A stretch of DNA of 64,000 nucleotides from NCBI RefSeq assembly GCF_001940455.1, contig NZ_MKQR01000028.1, forward strand, positions 226,057 through 290,056, read 5' to 3'. This document shows, piece by piece, positions 2,161 through 54,786 of the stretch. How positions within the stretch are numbered: the first letter of the stretch is position 1; every line of letters starts with the position of its first letter. The position numbers and the translations under genes are program-made. Under the pieces are notes generated by a model that did no database searches, was not told the DNA's origin, and worked only from the letters and a program-made list of their open reading frames with translations. This DNA is from Actinokineospora bangkokensis. GTDB lineage: Bacteria > Actinomycetota > Actinomycetes > Mycobacteriales > Pseudonocardiaceae.

Positions 2161-2404
2161 GTCGCCTCGCCTTCGGCTTCGGGGCGTGGAAAAGCCCGGT
2201 CGTTTGGTGGCGGGCTCGATGCGGTGGTCCTGTTTGGCCGGGGCCCCTGCGGCGATCATGTGCTCGGGGTGGGGAAAAGGTGAGGCCTGCGGCCCCACCC
2301 CCCGGCCGTGGGTAGCACATGATCGCCTTCCCCGGCCAAACAAGACCACCGCATCGAGCAGGGGCTTAGCCGGGCTTCCTGCTGCGTGGGTGGTGGCGTT
2401 GTGG
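2161..2404. repeat. dispersed palindromic element, copy A
   Basis: About 244 bp. Its core is a 146-bp inverted repeat (2214-2359) whose roughly 50-base arms share the block GCGATCATGTGCT and its complement, enclosing a second stem (GTGGGG with CCCCAC) capped by GGCCTGCGGCC. It fills the gap between the moeA stop and the GlsB-type gene. Copy D is nearly identical over the whole length; copies B and C share the core. No ORF or transposase belongs to it. Confidence 0.9.
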
Positions 2405-2473
2405 GCAAAGAGAAAGAAGGGAAGAAAGGAGGTGGGGATCAGGAGAGGGGGAAGGGCGAGGCGGTGCGGGGGG

Positions 2474-3664
2474 TCAGGTGAGGAGCACTACGTCCACTTC
2501 GGTGCCCTCGGGGATGGCGGTGGTGGCGGCGGGGACCTCGATGAGGCAGTTGGCGGCGGCGAAGGAGGCGAGGAGGTGGGAGGCGGGGCCGCCGACGGGG
2601 ACGACCTGGACGCGGCCGGAGTCGAGGTGGGCCCTGCGGTACTGGACCTTGCCGCTCGGGGAGGTGAGGGGGGTGGTGACGCGGGCGCGGGTGCGGGGGC
2701 GGTCGGGGGTGGGGTGGCCCATGGCGGTGAGGAGGGCGGGGCGGAGGAACAGCTCGAAGGAGAGGGCGGCGGAGACGGGGTTGCCGGGGAAGGCGATGAC
2801 GGGCAGGCCGTCGACGGTGCCGGAGCCCTGGGGGCCGCCGGGTTGGATGGCCACGCGGACGAAGCGGACGCCGTGGTCGGTGAGGGCGTCCTTGACGACC
2901 TCGTAGGCGCCCGCGCTCACGCCGCCGGAGGTGACCAGGACGTCGGCGTCGACGTCGGCGACGACCCGGCGGAAGGCGGGGACGTCGTCGGGGACCGCGC
3001 GCAGGACGGTGGCCAGGCCGCCCAGTTCGCGCACGGCGGCGGCGATGAGGACGCTGTTGGACTCGTAGATCTGGCCGAACTCCAGCGGGGTGCCCGGCTC
3101 CACCAGCTCCGAGCCCGTGGACAGCACCACCACCCTGGGGCGGCGGCGGACGGGCAGGTCGGCGGCGCCGACGGCGGCGGCCAAGCCGAGCTGGGGCGGG
3201 CCCAGGACGGTGCCCGCGCGCAGCACCACCGTTCCCGCGCGCACGTCCTCACCGACGCGGCGCAGGTGCTTGCCCGCGGGGACGGGCGCGGTGATGTGCA
3301 CTGTCCCGGTGCCCGCGTCGGTCAGCTCGACCTGGACCACCGCGTCCGCGCCCGGGGGCAGGGGGGCGCCGGTCATGATGCGGTGGGCGGTCCCGGGCTC
3401 CAGGGGGCGCACGTCGGTGCGGCCTGCCGGGATGTCGTCGGCGACGGGCAGCGACACCGGGGCGGTGGCGACGTCCTCGGCGCGCACGGCGTAGCCGTCC
3501 ATCGCGGAGTTGTCGAAGGGCGGCAGGGACACCGGGGCCACCACGTCCTCGGCCAGCACCAGCCCGCGGCAGTCCGCGAGCGGGGTCGGCACCACGGGCA
3601 TCTCCGGCACCAGCCCGGCCACGACGGCGCGGTACTCGGCGGGGGTGTAGGTCGCGTCGGCCAC
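2474..3664 (-). CDS. moeA: molybdopterin molybdenumtransferase MoeA (Glp family)
   Basis: MoeA inserts molybdate into adenylated molybdopterin, the last step of molybdenum cofactor synthesis in the cytoplasm. The 396-residue protein shows the family blocks in order: FDNSAMDGYAVRAED near residue 55, MTGAPLPPGADAVV, a STGSEL block, the SGGVSAGAYEVVKD block and AFPGNPVSA near residue 290. I chose the GTG at 3664, which begins VADATYTPAEYRAVV; the longer upstream frame has no family resemblance. A CAGGAT hexamer six bases upstream fits a leaderless start. It is separated from the other cofactor genes by over 35 kb, which is common in actinobacteria. Confidence 0.92.
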   Translation of the reverse strand: MADATYTPAEYRAVVAGLVPEMPVVPTPLADCRGLVLAEDVVAPVSLPPFDNSAMDGYAVRAEDVATAPVSLPVADDIPAGRTDVRPLEPGTAHRIMTGAPLPPGADAVVQVELTDAGTGTVHITAPVPAGKHLRRVGEDVRAGTVVLRAGTVLGPPQLGLAAAVGAADLPVRRRPRVVVLSTGSELVEPGTPLEFGQIYESNSVLIAAAVRELGGLATVLRAVPDDVPAFRRVVADVDADVLVTSGGVSAGAYEVVKDALTDHGVRFVRVAIQPGGPQGSGTVDGLPVIAFPGNPVSAALSFELFLRPALLTAMGHPTPDRPRTRARVTTPLTSPSGKVQYRRAHLDSGRVQVVPVGGPASHLLASFAAANCLIEVPAATTAIPEGTEVDVVLLT

Positions 3665-3721
3665 GGCACCATCCTGTCCCAGCGGCGCGGCGGGCACCCC
3701 CCGGGAGGGGTCCGGTGCGCC

Positions 3722-3753
3722 TCTCCCACGCGCGGGCGCCCGCGCGTGGGAGA
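3722..3753. promoter_or_regulatory. perfect 32-bp palindrome between divergent moeA and AIM24 genes
   Basis: A palindrome without a central loop, each half being 16 bases (TCTCCCACGCGCGGGC). It sits 57 bases upstream of the moeA start and 38 bases upstream of the AIM24 start, where a shared operator would lie. It could also form a cruciform or a hairpin in the AIM24 leader. Confidence 0.6.
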
Positions 3754-3791
3754 CTGCGCGCGCCGTCCCAGGTCGCAGGAGGAGCCAACGC

Positions 3792-4421
3792 ATGCAGGTC
3801 CGCACCCGGCACACGCCCGCGTTCGGCGTCGCGCGGCTGCTGCTCGCCCCCGGGGAGGCCGTGCAGGCCGAGGCGTCGGCGATGCTGGCGACCAGCTACG
3901 GGGTGCACATCGAGCCGCGCAGCCGCGGCGGTCGCGGCCGGTCGAAGCCCGCCGTGTTCACCGCGGGCACCGAGGGCGGGTGGGTCGACATCACCCCCGC
4001 GTTCCCCGGCGACGTGCACACCATCGACCTGGACGGCACCCAGGGGTGGTGCGTGTCGCGGGGCAGTTGGCTGGCGGTGACGGCGACGCTGCGGGCCGAC
4101 GCGCAGTGGCCCGGGTTCCACGCGCTGTTCGGGGCCGAGCACGGGTTCCTGGAGCACGCCACCGGGTCCGGGACGCTGGTGCTGGCCTGCTGCGGGGCGC
4201 TGGACACGATCACCCTGTCGCCGGGGGAGTTCATCAGCGTCGACCCCGCGCACCTGCTGGGCTACAGCGACGACACCCAGGCGCGGCTGCGGGCGATCAG
4301 CCAGTCCGGGCCGCAGTCGGTGCGCACCGGGGAGGGGCTGATCCTGGACTTCGCCGGGCCCGGCACGGTGCTCACCCAGACCCGCACGCCGCGGGCGATG
4401 GCCGCGCTGCTGGGGCACTGA
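3792..4421 (+). CDS. AIM24 family protein
   Basis: A 209-residue protein of the AIM24/TIGR00266 family, built from repeated beta strands. Visible are an N-terminal region with paired basic residues (about 47-55), the GDVHTIDLDG and GFLEHATGSGTLVL segments and a glycine-rich C-terminal half that recalls other bacterial AIM24 proteins. No catalytic residues are known for the family; in yeast AIM24 is mitochondrial, and bacterial roles are unclear. The ATG is preceded by AGGAGGAG, so this mRNA has a normal leader. It is divergent from moeA across a perfect palindrome. Confidence 0.75.
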   Translation: MQVRTRHTPAFGVARLLLAPGEAVQAEASAMLATSYGVHIEPRSRGGRGRSKPAVFTAGTEGGWVDITPAFPGDVHTIDLDGTQGWCVSRGSWLAVTATLRADAQWPGFHALFGAEHGFLEHATGSGTLVLACCGALDTITLSPGEFISVDPAHLLGYSDDTQARLRAISQSGPQSVRTGEGLILDFAGPGTVLTQTRTPRAMAALLGH

Positions 4422-4511
4422 GCCGCGCCGCCGGGCGCCGGTGCGGGGCGCGGCGCGCTGGTTGGGACTACCGGCCACGCCGCGCGCGCCACGGGCGTTA
4501 GGCTGCGGTGC

Positions 4512-53785: not shown

Positions 53786-53926
53786 CAGCATCGACACCGC
53801 CCACAGCCACGGCGCCTGCCCGCCGAGCGCGGCCAGCACGAAGATCGCCACCACGGCGAGCAGGCCGACGGCGAACAGCACGAGCCCGGCGGTGAACGCG
53901 CGGCTGCGGCGGGCGGGAGCGGTCAT
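53735..53926 (-). CDS. small two-span membrane protein, 63 residues
   Basis: A short protein with a basic N-terminus (RRSR) and two membrane spans (about 12-34 and 39-57: LFAVGLLAVVAIFVLAAL, WAVSMLLPLGLVVAVV), ending VRRR. TATCCT (53938-53933) ends six bases before the ATG, matching the leaderless pattern of neighbours and supporting a real gene. Its 3' part overlaps the end of the HAD gene on the opposite strand by 51 bases. No family recognised. Confidence 0.65.
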   Translation of the reverse strand: MTAPARRSRAFTAGLVLFAVGLLAVVAIFVLAALGGQAPWLWAVSMLLPLGLVVAVVDTVRRR

Positions 53927-54023
53927 GCGACCAGGATAGTTCGCCCGCCGTGCAACACCGGGCGGTCCCCGCGCGAACTCCCCGGGGGCGAACTCGGCGG
54001 CGCGCCCGCCCCGGTGTGCCCTA

Positions 54024-54046
54024 CCCTGGACAGGACGCGTCCAGGG
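54024..54046. promoter_or_regulatory. inverted repeat upstream of the cold-shock gene
   Basis: CCCTGGAC, seven bases, GTCCAGGG, about 83 bases before the chosen start. The outer flanks GTGCCC and GGGCAC extend the symmetry with a small insertion. It may be an operator or a cold-responsive leader hairpin. Confidence 0.5.
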
Positions 54047-54128
54047 CACGCCCCCCGGGCGCGTCTGCCTTGTGCGGACGCCACCCGCGCTGGGCGCGAC
54101 GTTTGACGACGAGGGAACGGTGAGATCA

Positions 54129-54515
54129 GTGCCGACCGGCAAGGTCAAGTGGTACGACTCGGAGAAGGGCTTCGGGTTCGTCACGCAGGACGGTGGCGAG
54201 GACGTCTACGTCCGCTCCACCGCGCTGCCCGCGGGGGTCCCCGGCCTCAAGGCGGGCCAGCGCATCGAGTTCGGCGTCGCCGACGGCAGGCGCGGCCCCC
54301 AGGCCCTCTCGGTGCGCCTCATCGACGCCCCGCCCTCGGTCGTCGAGGCCCGCAGGCGCCCCGCCGAGGAGCTGCACGGCCTGGTCGAAGACATGATCAA
54401 GATGTTGGAGGGCGTCGTCCAGCCCGACCTGGCCCGCAAGCGCTACCCGGACCGGAAGGTGACCAAGCGGATCGCCGAGGTCATGCGCGCGGTGGCTCGG
54501 GAGCTGGACCCGTAA
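54129..54515 (+). CDS. cold-shock domain protein with C-terminal extension
   Basis: A 128-residue RNA-binding protein. Residues 1-65 are a cold-shock domain: [20 protein letters not shown] carries RNP1, and [10 protein letters not shown] corresponds to RNP2. The last 60 residues form a helical, charged extension ([36 protein letters not shown]) not found in classical 67-residue Csp proteins but usual for this actinobacterial group. I chose the GTG at 54129, starting [11 protein letters not shown] 54120 is possible. Likely a nucleic-acid chaperone. Palindromic copy D begins 27 bases after the stop. Confidence 0.9.
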
Positions 54516-54541
54516 CGGGGGTGCTTGTCCCGCCTCGCCGG

Positions 54542-54786
54542 GTCGCCTCGCCTTCGGCTTCGGCTCTGGGAAAGGCCCGGTCGTTTGGTGGCGGGCTCGA
54601 TGCGGTGGTCCTGTTTGGCCGGGGCCCCTGCGGCGATCATGTGCTCGGGGTGGGGGAAAAGGTGAGGCCTTCGGCCCCACCCCCCGGTCGTGGGTAGCAC
54701 ATGATCGCCTTCCCCGGCCAAACAAGACCACCGCATCGAGCAGGGGCTTAGCCGGGCTTCCTGCTGCGTGGGTGGTGGCGTTGTGG
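54542..54786. repeat. dispersed palindromic element, copy D
   Basis: A 245-bp near-identical copy of element A, differing mainly in the first 40 bases and by GGCCTTCGGCC in place of GGCCTGCGGCC at the hairpin tip, giving a UUCG-like loop. The core inverted repeat runs from about 54595 to 54741. It lies between the convergent cold-shock and DUF2771 genes. Confidence 0.92.

Follow-up and report, generated by a model that had tools for sequence, protein, structure and literature searches.

A 64,000-nucleotide stretch of the genome of Actinokineospora bangkokensis 44EHW (hereafter the window; the whole genome comprises 7,453,713 bases in 32 contigs, the largest of 931,456) carries five copies of a long hairpin with two successive helices. 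They belong to a large family of dispersed hairpins that is real, non-autonomous and constrained in structure. We consider it probable that this family consists of non-coding, non-autonomous mobile elements of the Pseudonocardiaceae that are kept at transcription ends and resemble REPINs and SPRITE in behaviour. The family has many copies, mosaic subtypes, a composite unit that occurs twice, lineage-specific positions, arms that change in pairs, and a confinement to the ends of transcription units. Mechanistically, an enzyme provided in trans would recognise the hairpin on a single strand, either as a single-stranded DNA transposition intermediate or as RNA. Selection would purge insertions elsewhere, since a strong hairpin disturbs expression, and the copies that are kept would probably act as bulky structures at 3' ends, limiting read-through where two genes converge.

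A high-copy hairpin family with a common fold

The five copies share one fold, and the conserved unit consists of a 30-bp outer helix (P1) with a foot of about GnYCGnTnGGGTGG in Actinokineospora, an asymmetric internal loop, GGGGCCCCT, with CCCCT on one side after GGGG, a 14-bp inner helix (P2), and an apical segment that folds into a further hairpin next to an A/T run. A preliminary description of the window, made from the sequence alone, had reported a stem enclosing a second stem-loop, and this anatomy was indeed found in all five copies. Four of them (A, B2, C and D) are of type I, while the fifth (B1) is of type II, in which the apical part, CGGGCGGGAAAAGGCGGGCTGAAAAGACGCCCGCCCG, replaces the type I sequence. 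The window hairpins are 145–148 nt long. P1 is paired at 29, 28, 27 and 29 of its 30 positions in the type I copies and at 28/30 in the fifth, so that its 30-bp arms form terminal inverted repeats with 27–29 of 30 positions paired throughout; P2 is fully paired (14/14) in four copies and at 13/14 in the fifth. The inner arm GATCATGTGCT, with at most one mismatch, occurs 10 times in the window as against a mean of 0.26 in 100 shuffles, and copy A folds better than 200 out of 200 shuffled sequences (z of -7.8 as DNA and -7.3 as RNA). The four copies that had been described at 2161-2404, 14440-14584, 42175-42410 and 54542-54786 are real and were recovered as direct repeats, copies A, B2, C and D falling in the direct-repeat families D2 and D3. 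A "diverged fifth" copy had also been proposed; it exists, but it represents another subtype, which recurs at many other places; here it lies on the minus strand (14200-14347) and makes up a composite together with copy B.

The genome was searched with a covariance model (R1) made from 25 distinct copies, 23 of them from A. bangkokensis and 2 from A. pegani (G007). This gave 149 matches, 32 of which were the other strand of the same place, and hence about 117 places; as at most 150 candidates per genome were scored in the R1 scans and in the scan of the genus with the model R2 described below, their copy counts are lower bounds. Such a search of the whole genome and of relatives had been suggested at the outset, and it recovered a high-copy family of which the five copies in the window are a small part. 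Exact inner arms lying 35–65 nt apart marked 75 palindromic places in the genome, compared with 0 in a reversed control. When 1.18 Mb of the same genome was scanned with no candidate limit, we observed 45 full-length copies (130–181 bits), plus 45 opposite-strand readings, and only four weak matches (27–38 bits), so that intact copies predominate. All 45 full-length places were also present in the genome-wide R1 list. Outer and inner parts are mixed between copies, as in loci L028 and L034, where a type I outer helix surrounds a type II core.

Paired change of the arms

The preliminary description had pointed to changes such as TTTGGCCGGGG to TTTGGTCGGGG and GTGGTC..TTTGG to GTGGTT..CTTGA, each with the matching change opposite, and had argued that a paired form was kept and not merely copied. 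The changes are present in the sequence, and the argument is strongly supported by three alignments. Among 25 rows (own copies plus two from a relative), two-sided change was seen in 16 of the 51 pairs, amounting to 119 cells compared with 2–10 cells for slid partners. With 42 rows from other genus members it was seen in 42/51 pairs and 509 cells; slid pairing reached at most 89 cells here, and shuffles had a mean of 157 and were never as high. Fourteen rows from other genera showed it in 43/51 pairs and 198 cells (at most 37 when slid). The 42-row and 14-row alignments were fitted to the structure by a model and therefore lean toward pairing; model-free arm tables agree on the paired change, the finder itself demanding 22 of 30 paired positions. 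One row of alignment A4 (L098, +) repeats, as read from the other strand, a place that another row covers, and alignments A3 and A5, which hold more such rows, were left out of the counts together with A2. Arm changes no more paired than expected by chance had been named as the outcome that would speak against a conserved fold; instead, the changes are paired genus-wide. With one fold shared by species of quite different arm sequence, the shape seems to be what is kept.

One-sided changes through G.U pairs were rare in the 42-row alignment (12 cells, as against the 509 two-sided ones). Such scarcity differs from typical RNA families, and a DNA-level reason is therefore possible. The arms might, for example, be held complementary by template-switch correction or gene conversion, with no selected function of the hairpin, and changes that go nearly always from Watson-Crick to Watson-Crick on both sides are what such upkeep would produce. 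However, mismatches survive amplification, with one arm pair carrying a C.A mismatch in 15 listed copies, and the GGGGCCCCT loop is conserved while the arms change, so that arm correction alone is insufficient; we regard palindrome upkeep as an improbable explanation.

Placement at the ends of transcription units

For 44 copies in the 1.18 Mb the surrounding gap could be classed, one copy at a contig end being left unclassed. Thirty-four copies lay in 29 of the 163 convergent gaps, 10 in 8 of the 648 co-directional gaps, and none in the 163 divergent gaps or inside called genes. Convergent gaps make up 20% of the intergenic bases and hold 34/44 copies (p = 4e-16); divergent gaps make up 27% and hold 0/44 (p = 1e-6). 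In this DNA an element thus marks roughly every sixth convergent gene pair. The 59 loci from other genus members were distributed as 35 convergent, 21 co-directional, 0 divergent and 3 unclear, and the 20 loci from other genera as 7, 11, 1 and 1, respectively. This distribution indicates that the elements sit where transcription units end. A random placement, which would have contradicted the preference for gene ends put forward earlier, was not observed in the DNA covered, as the copies avoid promoter-side gaps and genes.

At 50 of the 65 convergent sites with a single element, it was the GGGGCCCCT side that lay closer to a stop codon, which may partly reflect the unequal flanks of the unit. 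A "sense" orientation relative to the upstream gene, first read as 40/45, was rejected, given that it is automatic in convergent gaps and that the orientation count in co-directional gaps (25/42, p = 0.28; 5/10 in the own genome, 13/21 in the genus and 7/11 in other genera) was not significant.

The enrichment in convergent gaps would also suit a structured RNA of the 3' untranslated region, that is, a terminator-insulator family whose RNA is made from the strand opposite to the one with GGGGCCCCT on the left. The apical hairpin and its U run would then end the transcript from the convergent neighbour, P1 and P2 would serve as an RNase III substrate in read-through RNA, and copies would have spread as useful ones. 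On this opposite strand, a T run comes directly after the apical hairpin in 51/52 distinct segments of the own genome and 42/55 of other Actinokineospora, as compared with 1/52 and 0/55 on the GGGGCCCCT-left strand, and the RNA of the opposite strand folds lower in 65/94 own and 35/60 other elements. However, the T-run patterns were picked after viewing the sequences, and a standard terminator scan returned no terminator at copy C and a chance-level site alone at B.

Mismatches gave a second strand signal. Read with GGGGCCCCT on the left, A.C exceeded G.U in the own genome (50 vs 13 in P1 and 7 vs 1 in P2) and in other genus members (27 vs 2 and 9 vs 6), and in distinct contexts the overall ratio ranged from 27:11 to 43:12. 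Because an A.C mismatch corresponds to G.U in the complementary strand, the opposite strand is favoured as the folded one. The asymmetry stems mainly from the other genus members (14:1 to 23:1), because the ratio in the own genome alone (16:10 to 20:11, p = 0.14–0.33) is not significant, and it is absent in other genera, with 7 A.C and 11 G.U. Strand-biased mutation would give the same A.C excess, and the folded-strand signal is therefore to be taken as a lead. Considering also that orientation shows no preference in co-directional gaps and that G.U pairs are rare overall, we think a terminator-insulator family rather unlikely.

Distribution among relatives

R1 detected the family in 15 of the 16 Actinokineospora genomes, the own genome included. 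The remaining one, G012, had no copy with either R1 or R2, a model built from the 42 rows of other genus members, and was the sole such genome among the 16; its lack of copies is useful for tracing a mobiliser through gene absence. With R2, the family was found in 12 of 80 sampled Pseudonocardiaceae genomes and 8 of 46 genera, again counting the own genus, which is a lower bound as at most 36 candidates per genome were scored and samples of more than 40 genomes were run under stricter filters; one genome in this count, G067, is represented by a single match known from the model search alone. In copies from six of the other genera the anatomy is unchanged although the arms differ: they have a GGGGCCC-type loop, most show an A run before the apical hairpin, and several carry a GYTTA-type stretch after it. 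A third model, made from copies of five other genera, was run on 150 genomes from the order and matched 4, each of them a member of the Pseudonocardiaceae (at most 20 candidates per genome scored, likewise a lower bound).

Copy numbers can differ between close relatives. G014 and G010, which are 93.6% identical at the site of copy D, had 89 R1 matches (about 79 places) and 5, respectively; R2 gave 20 matches in G010, fragments and both strands counted. In G005, five hairpin elements stand within about 1.3 kb (L058, 643-1900), three in one direction and two in the other.

Carriage by phages or plasmids was rejected, as a blastn search with copy A against 72,556 plasmid and 50,697 phage records gave no match. 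A known RNA family was rejected as well: Rfam gave 0 matches at the gathering score, both for the window and for 8 loci from other species, and six sub-threshold matches near copy A at a loose threshold, all far below the cut-offs. Among the matches listed from the open-licence PMC literature, titles and abstracts do not describe the hairpin family. Tentatively, it might be an undescribed, family-wide class of hairpins in which the fold and not the sequence is inherited and recognised, being either mobile via a single-stranded hairpin and a type of recombinase with which repeats like these have yet to be connected, or a structured insulator of 3' ends that works in both directions and spreads in genomes; this is a possibility to which we give limited credence.

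Gain and duplication of copies

Site D, a remnant at site C, foreign element sites and the composite unit together indicate that copies are gained and duplicated as units, and probably also lost. At site D, the gap between the cold-shock gene and its convergent neighbour is 438 bp in A. bangkokensis and 187 bp in A. iranica (G013), each with an element but with different arms. Across the 13 other genus genomes parsed (G001 was left out), the gap ranges from -4 to 81 bp, and the model found no element at this site in any of the 14 other genus genomes; among the site D loci of 80 named relatives, only that of A. iranica has one. Conversely, when sites of foreign elements were matched to A. bangkokensis DNA, 10 of 13 were without an element here. 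This applies to the 13 of 55 loci that were matchable, in own DNA partly chosen for containing elements, and single-gene matches are possibly paralogues.

The composite unit of 604 bp, made of copies B1 and B2, has a second copy at scaffold C28 (641355-641954) that is 91% identical, and the 60 nt beyond the ends of the two do not match. A part of 331 bp is present again near C28:220 kb. At one end of the composite lie three 45-base units, head to tail and AGCAGCGCAACCACC-containing (14051-14188); similar motifs follow several other copies.

Search for a mobiliser and comparison with known repeats

A REP/MITE-like element mobilised in trans had been proposed for the window copies. Its behaviour fits, the family being dispersed, non-coding and high in copy number, with turnover and a composite that has moved, but a RAYT as the mobiliser does not. 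The search for RayT-like Y1 transposases that had been suggested with this proposal yielded 0 matches to Y1_Tnp (PF01797) in the own genome, and a RAYT/IS200 mobiliser was rejected for this genome. Y1_Tnp matched in 2 of the 16 genus genomes, with no element within 1.5 kb on each side of either locus. That the family represents REPINs once moved by a RAYT (Y1) transposase that has since been lost would agree with its long imperfect palindromes, high copy number, extragenic positions and occasional doublets, a behaviour of the same kind as that of REPINs (PMC3116915). Yet the genus loci offer no link between transposase and element, and the units are the 145–148 nt hairpins of the window and not paired 20–40 bp REPs, which makes a lost RAYT very improbable. 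A scan of 1.98 Mb of own DNA for arms gave a single stretched pair, with arms separated by 240 nt, and three broken left arms that resemble known arms; a match at chance level and a weak orphan right arm were the other results, and no open reading frame was found between anchor-motif arms within 4 kb in the same DNA.

In behaviour, the family is closest to REPINs and SPRITE, even though the defining RAYT test of REPINs failed. As described in PMC3116915 and PMC3733652, REPINs and REP-RAYT systems are likewise extragenic, non-coding, high-copy palindromes predicted to form hairpins in single-stranded DNA or mRNA, lie mostly in convergent or unidirectional gaps, as do the copies here (34 convergent, 10 co-directional and 0 divergent of 44), and vary in copy number between relatives. 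However, a REPIN is composed of two short tagged REPs, whereas each element here is a single hairpin with a GGGGCCCCT loop, in a genome with no Y1 transposase, and its arms diverge widely between species while pairing is kept. The 20–40 bp palindrome with an unpaired GTAG/CGTC end tag that characterises REPs was not seen (the tag was judged by eye): the foot reads GnYCGnT..GGTGG, and GTAG is present inside the apical part of the own copies, not at an end. SPRITE of Streptococcus pneumoniae (PMC3049150) is also a dispersed terminator-like hairpin enriched near gene 3' ends, but it is AT-rich, and its 18-bp duplex is combined with a long U tract. In the present family, two further long helices enclose the terminator-like hairpin, G+C is 0.57–0.71, and pairing co-varies across genera. 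Prokaryotic MITEs (PMC10969869) share the short, non-coding, intergenic nature, the terminal inverted repeats and the predicted stem-loop transcripts; unlike them, the elements are not AT-rich, and 1.98 of the 7.45 Mb held no parent insertion sequence with the same ends.

Most descriptions of tagged dispersed palindromes come from proteobacteria, some members are known from other phyla, and one large group of them has been proposed to be moved by a Y1 transposase (PMC3733652). The present family adds a high-copy actinomycete case without such a transposase in this genome and with arms that changed in step across genera, and the mutations that it has gathered in nature can serve to ask if DNA or RNA is the form in which the hairpin acts, and what mobilises it.

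Several observations weigh against the mobile-element reading that we prefer. In the 25-row alignment, 29 of 500 shuffles equalled the number of two-sided pairs, and pair types were fewer than in shuffles, as is to be expected of close copies. At site C, three genus members have an element in the same gap and orientation, an arrangement that vertical inheritance followed by homogenisation would equally explain. In G010, the gap at site C still contains 11 bases that match the end of the element, as would be left by a deletion, so that the close pair G014/G010 shows a remnant and not a clean empty site. Moreover, the two copies of the composite have no clear flanking target duplication and the unit borders are fuzzy, and the 1.98 Mb yielded no autonomous relative sharing these arms. 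Finally, the scarcity of decayed copies could mean selection on each copy, and thus function rather than selfish spread.

Coordinates and gene context in the window

The hairpins and the larger units are listed below. An earlier assignment of all copies to intergenic gaps was confirmed by independent gene calls, which come from a simple codon-position script and not from an annotation. Copy A lies beside moeA (2474-3664, -), at its 3' end, with a Transgly_assoc gene (1818-2099, -) on the other side. The other copies lie between convergent stops: copies B, copy C, between a MoCF_biosynth-MoaE gene and a transglycosylase-LysM gene, and copy D, between a cold-shock-domain gene and a DUF2771 gene.

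Table 1. Hairpin elements and composite unit in the window (positions of the 64,000-nucleotide stretch)
Feature	Position	Strand	Description
Copy A, extended unit	2161..2404	+	type I; 5' GCCTCGCCTTCGGC motif, hairpin, 3' tail
Copy A, hairpin	2214..2359	+	P1 2214-2243/2330-2359; loop CCCCTGC 2244-2250; P2 2251-2264/2314-2327; apical hairpin 2265-2313
Composite unit, 604 bp	14057..14660		two elements in opposite orientation, plus tails
Copy B1, hairpin	14200..14347	-	type II; P1 14318-14347/14200-14229; loop CCCCTA 14312-14317; P2 14298-14311/14231-14244; apical 14245-14297
Copy B2, hairpin	14440..14584	+	type I; P1 14440-14469/14555-14584; P2 14477-14490/14539-14552; apical 14491-14538
Copy C, hairpin	42221..42365	+	type I; P1 42221-42250/42336-42365; P2 42258-42271/42320-42333
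Copy D, hairpin	54595..54741	+	type I; P1 54595-54624/54712-54741; P2 54632-54645/54696-54709

Two further repeats were noticed in the window. A second dispersed repeat, CGGTAGCGTTGAAAACAGGGGTCC, starts at about 54881 (+) and, with at most 3 differences, occurs 35 times in 1.98 Mb of the genome, 13 of these copies lying within 600 nt of a hairpin element. In addition, a 68-base repeat is present in nine overlapping copies at 15-base spacing (5363-5550) inside a called gene (4512-5891).

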